Below are positions 16,382 to 52,625 of a DNA stretch of 61,689 bases, in pieces. How positions within the stretch are numbered: the first letter of the stretch is position 1; every line of letters starts with the position of its first letter. The notes beneath the pieces are model-generated. The model saw only the letters and a list, made by a program, of their open reading frames with translations, searched no databases and was not told the origin of the DNA. The position numbers and the translations under genes were made by a program. The DNA is taken from contig JAIRUS010000099.1 of assembly GCA_031254295.1 (NCBI GenBank), positions 1-61,689 on the forward strand, given 5' to 3'. The DNA is from Streptococcaceae bacterium. GTDB taxonomy: Bacteria; Bacillota; Bacilli; Lactobacillales; Streptococcaceae.

Positions 16382-16654
16382 ATGGTAACAGGGAAAATAA
16401 ACTCAAACACTGTTGATGCTCAGGAAGCGATTACCGAACTTGTAGGTGTTGAGGCTTCAGGACTTTCAAATCAATCTGTAAACTTTGGTTCGAGCAACGT
16501 GCCAAGCGTGCTCGCAGGACAAACTTTGTCGAATCAGTTGATGTCTGATGTTTCAAAAGTTGTAGCGTGCGTTTTAACTCAGGCGAATAAATTTCCAGAG
16601 TTAGCTAATGCGATTGAGGAGCGTGATATGGATGCGGCTAGGAGGTGGAACTAA
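16382..16654 (+). CDS. Small helical type VII secretion partner (TIGR04197/DUF3130-like)
   Basis: This 90-residue protein lacks a signal peptide and is predicted to be mostly helical (VDAQEAITELVGVEASGLS, then LSNQLMSDVSKVVACVLTQANKFPELANAIEERD). It resembles the short WXG100-like SACOL2603/DUF3130 family encoded directly upstream of LXG toxins, whose members act as targeting partners for T7SSb substrates. The start follows AAGGGAGAATTTT. Its stop overlaps the next start as TAATG. Family placement is from pattern and context and needs an HMM search. Confidence 0.7.
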   Translation: MVTGKINSNTVDAQEAITELVGVEASGLSNQSVNFGSSNVPSVLAGQTLSNQLMSDVSKVVACVLTQANKFPELANAIEERDMDAARRWN

Positions 16655-17301
16655 TGCCTTGGATAAAGACAATGTTTGAGGGACTCAAAGGCTTGGTAGA
16701 TGCGACAGATGATGAAATTCGTCAATGTGCTATTACTTATAACCATCTTTACAGAGATTTAACCGAAGAAGAAATTCAGCAATACATCAAAGATTATAGG
16801 TTAGCAGAGAAGAAAAAACTTGAAACTGAAACAAAGGGTTCATATAATTCTTACGTAGTTATTGCGCTTGATGACGACGCTCAAAAATCAAACTCTAAAA
16901 CTAGAACAGAACCTACTACCAATTTTTCATCTTCTAAATTGAAATCGAAAGACCAAAGCGCTGATAAGCGTGCTGAATATGCTCAAAAAATTATGTTCAA
17001 GGAACAGGAAATGGATGACCTCGGACAGCTAGAGCGAAATTTTGAAAACAGGAATGATAAATTCATTTCCAATACTAATCGCGTTTTTGAGGAGTTTGAG
17101 GAATCTTTTCATGAAGGAAGTTCGTATTCTTCTCAACAGTCTCGTTGGCAACAGTCGGTCGTTCAAGATGTCTATCATCACATGAAATCTCTCGCCGAAC
17201 AACAAAATGAAACAATGAAAAACTCTTGCCAAGTCGCTCGAATTGAAATTGAAGACAAAATAGAAGCTCTCCATAAAGACAGGAACGCTTTGCCATGGTA
17301 G
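16654..17301 (+). CDS. LXG-associated helical protein, second secretion partner
   Basis: The start was moved from the GTG at 16645 to the ATG at 16654, because AGGAGG lies eight bases upstream; this gives 215 residues. There is no signal peptide. The middle (about 75-115) is polar and low complexity. The C-terminal half, about 120-215, is a long charged helical region (LERNFENRNDKF, FEEFEESFHEG, QDVYHHMKSLAEQQ). Position between a DUF3130-like gene and an LXG gene matches the Lap/DUF3958-type partners described for streptococcal LXG effectors, but this protein is about twice the usual size of those. Function is inferred from context only. Confidence 0.6.
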   Translation: MPWIKTMFEGLKGLVDATDDEIRQCAITYNHLYRDLTEEEIQQYIKDYRLAEKKKLETETKGSYNSYVVIALDDDAQKSNSKTRTEPTTNFSSSKLKSKDQSADKRAEYAQKIMFKEQEMDDLGQLERNFENRNDKFISNTNRVFEEFEESFHEGSSYSSQQSRWQQSVVQDVYHHMKSLAEQQNETMKNSCQVARIEIEDKIEALHKDRNALPW

Positions 17302-18737
17302 TTTACGATAGTGGCGACTCAGATATACTCATTCAAGCGATGACGACTAATCTGAATAGTGCCAAAGCAATTTTTAATCGCTTGTGTCGGGGCAGTGTCC
17401 ACTTGATAGAGGTCATCAACTCAGGTGTTCTTTCAGGTGCTGCCTACACTGCGGGTAAAGAATTATTCGTGACCTATATCAATCCTATGCTTCAAAAGTT
17501 GTCACAAGCTATTAGTGATATTGAATCAGACCTTGAGGCTTACCGCAGTGCTGATAATATGGTACGCCAATATGAAAATCATTTAGATGAAGCTCTGTTA
17601 AAGAAACAGCTTAATGCAACAAAAGAATTGATTCGTCTATTACAACAGAAAATTGATGACGATGAAGACTTGATGAAAAATCTTCAAGCGGCTGCGAGTG
17701 GAGATTTTAGTAAAATTGCAGCAAATATGGCAGAGATACCAGGCTTGCAAGAACAACTTGATAATTTAGAGCAAGTTAAAACGATGTATGAGCAGGAACT
17801 TGTGGCACTTGCAACTTTTGTGAGTAGCACTACACCTCTATTCACAGATAGCTTGCAGGCTTTCAAGTATGCCATGCAGGGTGTGGATATTATCAATCAA
17901 AGCCGAGCAAATTTTGATGGTCAAATTACATTTCCAGCTGGCGCAGATATGAGTTGGTCATCTCATTTGACTGGCGAGAAATTTAGTTCAAAGCTTGATT
18001 TTGATACTACGAATTCTAAACTTAACACAAAAGGAATGAATTCAAAAGAATCTGCGGAATATAAAGACTCAGTAACTACAGTATTGACAAATTTAGAAGA
18101 GCAAGGCTGGAGCTCAGAAGCCCTGAAAGCATATGTGGCCTACATTAACAAGGTGGCTGGTAAATACAAAGGTTTAGATTTAAGCAAATATATGCTTGGG
18201 GTTGTGCCTGCGACGGGTTCAATACTCGGTTTGTTTGACAGTCAAGGAATAAGCAGCGCTGATGATGTTAATACCAAAGTTCTATCTGTTAGTGATATTC
18301 TGAAAGATGCAGCTCCAGGGGAAAAAACAGCAGGAAAAACTGAACAATGGGAAAAATCGGGTTCTTATGAAGAGGCAAAAAATGATTTTGATAGTTTACA
18401 ACCGCAGAATGTAAAACCGTTTACTAATGTTAAGAATGGAATTACTGGAGAGGCGGGTACATTAAGTGATGGTCAATATGTTATTGTAAGGACGGGTAGT
18501 AGTGATACTCGACCAACTTTACAAATACAAAAGGAGGTAGGTGGGAAAGGACAATTTGAAATTCGATATGGGGAGAAAGTTTCTGATAGTTTTGATTTAC
18601 CCAAAACGCCTGAGATACCAGATATATCAGAAGAACCAACTGTCTCAGAAATACCAGCTATACCAGATGAGCCAATTACGCCAGATGAACCAGTTGATCC
18701 AGATATACCATTTGATTATTCCCTTAATCAGGAATAA
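17295..18737 (+). CDS. LXG-domain polymorphic toxin (type VII secretion effector)
   Basis: This 480-residue protein overlaps the preceding gene by 7 bases. The N-terminal 200 residues form an LXG-like helical domain, with the signature region NSGVLSGAAYTAGKELF and long coiled-coil-like helices. A spacer follows, then a C-terminal domain around residues 345-420 (DFDSLQPQNVKPF, GTLSDGQYVIVRTGSS, RPTLQIQ, FEIRYG). That domain looks like a small beta-rich toxin domain found at the ends of polymorphic toxins; its activity is not known to me. The last 45 residues are a Pro/Glu/Ile-rich tail. No T7SS core genes are in the window, so the module would rely on machinery elsewhere. Confidence 0.78.
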   Translation: MVVYDSGDSDILIQAMTTNLNSAKAIFNRLCRGSVHLIEVINSGVLSGAAYTAGKELFVTYINPMLQKLSQAISDIESDLEAYRSADNMVRQYENHLDEALLKKQLNATKELIRLLQQKIDDDEDLMKNLQAAASGDFSKIAANMAEIPGLQEQLDNLEQVKTMYEQELVALATFVSSTTPLFTDSLQAFKYAMQGVDIINQSRANFDGQITFPAGADMSWSSHLTGEKFSSKLDFDTTNSKLNTKGMNSKESAEYKDSVTTVLTNLEEQGWSSEALKAYVAYINKVAGKYKGLDLSKYMLGVVPATGSILGLFDSQGISSADDVNTKVLSVSDILKDAAPGEKTAGKTEQWEKSGSYEEAKNDFDSLQPQNVKPFTNVKNGITGEAGTLSDGQYVIVRTGSSDTRPTLQIQKEVGGKGQFEIRYGEKVSDSFDLPKTPEIPDISEEPTVSEIPAIPDEPITPDEPVDPDIPFDYSLNQE

Positions 18738-50736: not shown

Positions 50737-50994
50737 ATGACAATATATTACATTCTCAATTTTGTAAGTTTAGCGATTAGTATTTATACTTGGGTATTAT
50801 TATTTTACGCATTTCTTTCATGGTTTCCATCTATTCAACAATCAGCTATTGGACGATTTATTCATAAAATTGTTGATCCTTATCTAGGACTTTTTGATAA
50901 GATTCCGACGCGGTTCGGAATTTTTGACTTTAAAGTCTTTATCGGAATGATAGTTCTCTTAGCTGTACAGCGATTTCTATTCATCATTTTTTGA
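50737..50994 (+). CDS. ylmG: YggT/YlmG family membrane protein
   Basis: 85 residues with two membrane spans (NFVSLAISIYTWVLLFYAFLSWFP and FKVFIGMIVLLAVQRFLFIIF) and the family segment SWFPSIQQSAIGRFIHKIVDPYLGLFDKIP between them. It belongs to the conserved division cluster; the precise role is unclear, with links to division and envelope assembly. The start follows AAGTAGGG. Confidence 0.93.
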   Translation: MTIYYILNFVSLAISIYTWVLLFYAFLSWFPSIQQSAIGRFIHKIVDPYLGLFDKIPTRFGIFDFKVFIGMIVLLAVQRFLFIIF

Positions 50995-51045
50995 TGATAA
51001 AACTGTTGTATCGAATCAAAATATAAAGACAGTAGGGAGCTTATC

Positions 51046-51831
51046 ATAGATTTTATTTATCAGCATTTTGGGCCTTCTGAGCAAGAGTTTATTGATAAGG
51101 CACAAGACTGGGTGAGACAAGTTGAGGATAAAGGTTATCTTTATTTAACTTATTTTTTGAACCCACGAGAGCGAGAAATTTTAGAGAATGTGGCAAATGG
51201 ACATTTTTTAAAATTCTTTTTTTCTCCTAAAGAAGCAGAATATGCACGCGTGATTATTGCGCCAGATTATTATGAAAGTTCGTTAGAGGACTTTGAAATT
51301 AGTTTATTAGAGATTACTTATCCAAATAAGTTTGGGTCAATCAGTCATCGCCAGATTTTAGGGACTTTTATTCATGAGACTGGACTTCAACGTCGTGAGA
51401 TCGGAGATATAGTAACTGGCAACGGGAAAGCTCAGATTTATGTGAATTCAAAATTACGTGACTATTTTCTTGACAAAGTAAAAGAAATCAACCATTTAGC
51501 GCTGCGAATAAAAGAAATTCCTCTGTCAGAGCGTATTGAAGCAGAGGAAAAGTCTGAAACTCTGACTATTTTAGCGAGTTCGATGCGTTTGGATAAGATA
51601 ATCAGCGCTGGACTTACTATTTCTCGCAATTTAGCCGTAAATATGATACAATCAAAACGTATCAAGGTGAATTATACAGAGATGGAGCGAAATGACTTTA
51701 CTCTGCAAGATGGAGACTTGATTTCAATCCGAGGACATGGTAGGATTAAAATTCTCCGACAGCTTGGTTTAAGTAAAAAAGATAAAATTAAGGTTGAAAT
51801 AGAAAAAATAGACAACCGAAAAGGAAGGTAA
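51046..51831 (+). CDS. ylmH: YlmH-like S4-domain RNA-binding protein, probably starting at an AUA codon
   Basis: The ORF track starts at a GTG (51112), but homology to YlmH extends upstream: the frame reads (I)DFIYQHFGPSEQEFIDKAQDW, matching the usual IYQHF ... FID N-terminus. Between the in-frame stop at 50998 and 51112 there is no ATG, GTG or TTG. The only sensible start is the ATA at 51046, six bases after TAGGGAG. This gives 261 residues, the normal length. The C-terminal S4 domain is present (SSMRLDKIISAGLTISRNLAVNMIQSKRIKVN, DLISIRGHGRIKI). YlmH acts on the 50S subunit in ribosome quality control. Function is confident; the start codon is unusual. Confidence 0.88.
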   Translation: MDFIYQHFGPSEQEFIDKAQDWVRQVEDKGYLYLTYFLNPREREILENVANGHFLKFFFSPKEAEYARVIIAPDYYESSLEDFEISLLEITYPNKFGSISHRQILGTFIHETGLQRREIGDIVTGNGKAQIYVNSKLRDYFLDKVKEINHLALRIKEIPLSERIEAEEKSETLTILASSMRLDKIISAGLTISRNLAVNMIQSKRIKVNYTEMERNDFTLQDGDLISIRGHGRIKILRQLGLSKKDKIKVEIEKIDNRKGR

Positions 51832-51833
51832 AT

Positions 51834-52625
51834 ATGGCTCTTAATAGTTTAGATGTACAAAATAAAACCTTTAATGCGAAATTCCGCGGCTATGATCGCC
51901 AAGAAGTTGATGAGTTCTTAGAGATTATCATTCGTGATTACGATGAAATGACTCAAAAGATTAAAGATCAAGAGCGCGATATTAAAGCAATGCAAGAACG
52001 CTTGACTGATTTTGACAACATGAAAGATTCTTTGAATCGCTCAATTCTTGTAGCTCAAGAAACAGCTGATAATGTAAAGACACAAGCTGAGTTAAATGCT
52101 GGCCGAATCAATCGTGAAGCTGGCCAACGTGCCGATCAAATCGTTGATGCATCACATCGTGAGGCACGTCAAATCCTTCAATCAACTTATGATGAAGCAC
52201 GTCGTCTTGTCAATGAATCTGATGAATTGAAGCGAGGTATGCGTAGCTACTATCAACGTATTACAATGTTGATGGAAGGCCAGTTGGCGAATATCAAATC
52301 AAGTGACTGGGAAGAGATTCTTAAACCATCTCCTATATATGTAGGGGATACAGAAGAAAAGTTACGCGACATCATTGAGCATACAAATCAAAACTTTATG
52401 CCAATCAATGAAAAAGGTGAGGAAGTAGTTCGCGAAGGAGAAAAAGCTCCAGAGACGTTAGAGAGCTTTGCTAATGCTTTGAATCCTGAAACAATTACAG
52501 TCATGCCTGAAACTGTTGAGGTAAAGGAAGAACCAGAGACAGAGTCAGAAGTGACGAATCCTGAAAATGGAGAAAAGCCAGATCCGACGATTAATCTTGG
52601 TGGCACGATTAACTTTGGTAATTAA
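51834..52625 (+). CDS. divIVA: Septum/pole-organising protein DivIVA
   Basis: A coiled-coil protein that binds negatively curved membrane. 263 residues beginning MALNSLDVQNKTFNAKFRGYDRQEVDEFLE, the canonical lipid-binding N-terminal domain. Long coiled coils follow (about 30-165), then an acidic C-terminal tail (VKEEPETESEVTNPENGEKPD) and the end LGGTINFGN. It starts 3 bases after ylmH. It closes the division cluster before the ileS leader. Confidence 0.95.
   Translation: MALNSLDVQNKTFNAKFRGYDRQEVDEFLEIIIRDYDEMTQKIKDQERDIKAMQERLTDFDNMKDSLNRSILVAQETADNVKTQAELNAGRINREAGQRADQIVDASHREARQILQSTYDEARRLVNESDELKRGMRSYYQRITMLMEGQLANIKSSDWEEILKPSPIYVGDTEEKLRDIIEHTNQNFMPINEKGEEVVREGEKAPETLESFANALNPETITVMPETVEVKEEPETESEVTNPENGEKPDPTINLGGTINFGN

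Follow-up and report, generated by a model that had tools for sequence, protein, structure and literature searches.

A probable AUA start codon in ylmH of one Lactovum species

In a genome of the lactic acid bacterial genus Lactovum, ylmH, which encodes a factor that assists ribosome rescue, appears to start at AUA, a very weak initiation codon. We consider this most probably (at about 0.6) to be a real, recent and tolerated weak start particular to one species, rather than a conserved regulatory device; the AUA codon of ylmH would then be a genuine but minor oddity, as is probably the case, with a one-base assembly error as the main rival explanation. The gene lies on contig C64 of a 2.12 Mb assembly (181 contigs, 2.95% contamination), and the nearest named relative of the genome is Lactovum miscens DSM 14925. 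The window, the whole stretch of DNA analysed, is this contig (61,689 nucleotides); a search of a phage collection gave no match.

Within the window, ylmH lies on the plus strand in the gene order ylmE–sepF–ylmG–ylmH–divIVA, and thus between ylmG and divIVA, as expected of this gene. The upstream neighbour, ylmG, is directly adjacent (50737–50994; YGGT family, Pfam PF02325, E = 1.1e-15), and divIVA follows directly downstream (51834–52625), an arrangement shared with L. miscens, in which the divIVA ortholog also adjoins ylmH. The original prediction, that ylmH starts at AUA, had pointed to an in-frame stop upstream, to a TAGGGAG six bases ahead of an ATA and to YlmH homology that precedes every standard start codon; all of these are read directly from the DNA. 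The stop is a TAA at 50998–51000, from which the ylmH frame is open between 51001 and 51831, with no ATG, GTG or TTG upstream of a GTG at 51112–51114. The Shine–Dalgarno sequence (51033–51039) is followed by the spacer CTTATC and then by the proposed AUA start (51046–51048), so that it is correctly spaced. Its predicted duplex with the general conserved 3′ end of 16S rRNA, used in place of the host's own sequence, has an energy of −7.1 kcal/mol, as compared with a median of −7.3 kcal/mol for 220 genes of the host genome. The site is therefore of ordinary strength, and the extended Shine–Dalgarno motif that is usual, though not strictly required, at AUA starts such as those of Staphylococcus aureus infC and ccpN is absent.

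Other near-cognate codons in the frame were rejected as starts: an ATC at 51043 is only 2–3 bases from the Shine–Dalgarno sequence and hence too close, an ATT at 51055 is 14–15 bases away and too far, and an ATC at 51010 has no Shine–Dalgarno sequence. A 10-codon ATG frame encoding MIKLLYRIKI (50994–51026) overlaps the ylmG stop as TGATG and terminates 19 bases short of the ylmH ATA; it has no visible Shine–Dalgarno sequence and is probably due to chance.

Read from the AUA, the gene (51046–51831) encodes 261 residues followed by a stop. Its product carries the YlmH_1st, YlmH_RBD and S4 domains in the expected order, each above the curated Pfam cut-off, and matches the solved YlmH structures 8s1p (Bacillus subtilis, on the ribosome; E = 1.2e-37) and 2fph (Streptococcus pneumoniae; E = 6e-35) from residue 3 or 4, counting the ATA codon as 1. 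The frame is intact, with 71% identity to that of L. miscens. The codons after ATA, GAT TTT ATT TAT CAG CAT TTT, give a protein beginning M-D-F-I-Y-Q-H-F, whose N-terminal numbering is that of B. subtilis YlmH, in which Asp3 and Gln6 touch helix H68 of 23S rRNA (PMC11317155); Gln6 is kept and Asp3 is replaced by Phe. No standard start precedes the GTG at 51112 in the frame, and it could be argued either that this GTG is the true start, giving a YlmH without its first 22 residues, or that the gene is decaying after a recent loss of its start. We regard both versions as very improbable. Initiation at this GTG would be served by a weak Shine–Dalgarno sequence (−3.4 kcal/mol at 10 bases, as against −7.1 kcal/mol for ATA); it would remove the conserved IYQHF and part of the YlmH_1st domain, which would then score 39.5 instead of 56.2 bits; and it would forfeit the B. 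subtilis-type numbering including Q6. Moreover, the residues lost are in the N-terminal region that contacts rRNA in B. subtilis, where a variant without residues 2–167 is inactive (PMC11317155).

Comparison with relatives supports the position of the start. The ATG of L. miscens ylmH (ATG GAA TCA ATT TAT CAA CAT TTT) shares an alignment column with the ATA, without a gap, and each of the 31 distinct relatives starts canonically no more than four codons from this column (27 ATG, 3 TTG and 1 GTG), while the present gene has none between −5 and +1 codons. The AUA thus stands where its orthologs start, in place of ATG, and no canonical alternative preserves the conserved N-terminus, which argues for an AUA start as judged from the sequence. 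The original prediction had held that ATG at this site in all relatives would refute it. This is largely what was found, L. miscens having ATG exactly there; nevertheless, an ATG in relatives cannot tell a species-specific mutation from an assembly error. A scan of named contigs returned L. miscens as the sole close relative and thus no second strain of the species.

AUA was found at the ylmH start in none of the congeners, and the conservation of a non-canonical codon that is usual, but not required, in regulatory cases is not seen among the 31 relatives. A search of 398 Lactobacillales genomes for GGAG-N4-9-ATH-N6-[IV]YQHF, a strict pattern that variants may escape, found no ylmH match besides this one; the other match, in genome G280, falls within the gene of a membrane protein that is unrelated. 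By this pattern, AUA, AUU or AUC is not a wider habit of ylmH in these genomes.

If the A at 51048 were a sequencing or assembly error, or the base of a minority strain, ylmH would start at ATG like the gene of L. miscens. This is a possibility to be taken seriously, though one that we consider distinctly the less probable. It draws on the uniformly canonical starts of the relatives near the site, on the Shine–Dalgarno sequence, which is average and without the extension typical of AUA starts, and on the state of the data: the AUA is known from one genome, in a fragmented assembly in which one plausible frame disruption was encountered. To set against this, a survey in which 229 genes were paired with their L. 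miscens orthologs, covering about 40% of the host genome (0.85 Mb of the host, partly masked, against 1.17 Mb of L. miscens), revealed ylmH as the sole clear start loss. Split frames were also rare, with one plausible disruption in ∼90 500 aligned codons (∼270 kb of aligned coding sequence); this rate, which counts split frames and not substitutions, makes an error at any given start codon unlikely.

In the host genome, a membrane protein gene on contig C62 (locus L166, minus strand, 16600–17412 of the reversed stretch) consists of two overlapping frames and is whole in L. miscens (L049); this points to a pseudogene or else to an error of assembly. Conversely, the L. miscens assembly (G001, L095:5357–6429) has in two pieces a plsX-like frame that is whole in the host genome (L140), and faulty sequencing of the L. 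miscens record is the likely cause.

That AUA can serve as a start in this genus is made plausible by infC, whose ATA or ATC starts throughout Lactovum are a firmer finding than the ylmH AUA. Placed by its homology with the mapped AUA start of the S. aureus gene, the infC start is ATA in three congeners (G001, L058; G002, L056; G004, L057) and ATC in a fourth (G003, L055). In the three with ATA, the sequence runs AAAGGAG, six bases, then ATA GCA AGA GAG/GAA, and the Shine–Dalgarno sequences of the congeners are strong and extended (−10 to −12.7 kcal/mol). In the host genome itself, infC (L059) is truncated where contig C20 ends, which leaves only the last part of the IF3_C domain. The pattern in the congeners suggests autoregulation of IF3 through AUA or AUC. 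Because infC of the genus starts at ATA or ATC, and because S. aureus has mapped AUA starts, initiation at AUA is plausible at ylmH as well. The description of AUA initiation in the original prediction as very rare is fair, though three such starts are mapped in S. aureus (PMC13009471).

In the reading that we prefer, an ancestral ATG would have become ATA by a single G-to-A change in ylmH of one Lactovum species. Ribosomes would bind at TAGGGAG, and the initiator tRNA (fMet, anticodon CAU) would start at AUA with a C–A mismatch at the third position, yielding the full-length protein in low amounts, perhaps between about a tenth and a third of those from AUG. Low levels of YlmH may be tolerated, since the consequences of losing YlmH in B. 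subtilis have been examined in strains from which trans-translation is missing as well (PMC11317155). As IF3 rejects weak pairs of this kind, YlmH synthesis should drop at high IF3, just as one would expect of infC in the genus. We believe it a long shot that YlmH synthesis is tied to IF3 through its AUA start in parallel with infC, such that both respond together when the fidelity of initiation falls. It is very unlikely, too, that AUA has been selected as a standing device coupling YlmH, which serves in ribosome-associated quality control, to the level of IF3. A role in translation is common to both genes, and infC of the genus likewise opens with AUA or AUC, as such a device would have it; yet AUA is found in no congener ylmH, nor does the strict pattern bring up a case among the other Lactobacillales genomes, and the extended Shine–Dalgarno motif is missing. 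A recent weak allele is favoured over evolved control because the codon is not conserved and the Shine–Dalgarno sequence is ordinary.

Should the recent weak start be real, ylmH would be added to the few bacterial genes that begin with AUA, and the two sister species would provide a natural ATG/ATA pair for gauging the cost of a weak start. Gene finders restricted to ATG, GTG and TTG would trim 22 residues from YlmH here.

In Escherichia coli, pcnB and infC have AUU starts that limit synthesis, and infC is sensitive to IF3. The ylmH start resembles these in being non-standard and differs in its codon, AUA rather than AUU; the E. coli cases have been demonstrated experimentally. Closer to hand, ylmH shares an AUA start with infC of its own genus, but the latter is a genus-wide feature with an extended Shine–Dalgarno sequence, as expected for IF3 autoregulation, whereas the ylmH AUA occurs in a single species. 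A handful of other genes in Firmicutes are already known to start at AUA, and ylmH would probably be an addition to them. In S. aureus, those of infC, ccpN and citZ have been mapped experimentally by Ribo-Ret, and reporters of tested AUA starts gave ∼10–30% of the AUG level (PMC13009471). The infC and ccpN sites carry extended Shine–Dalgarno motifs, and the ccpN AUA is conserved as far as B. subtilis, while that of citZ is limited to one lineage (PMC13009471). In contrast to infC and ccpN, the ylmH start has an average Shine–Dalgarno sequence, is not conserved and is known from sequence alone. Nevertheless, like all three S. aureus genes, ylmH belongs to a Firmicute and has AUA in place of AUG behind a properly spaced Shine–Dalgarno sequence, and like citZ its AUA is limited to one lineage.
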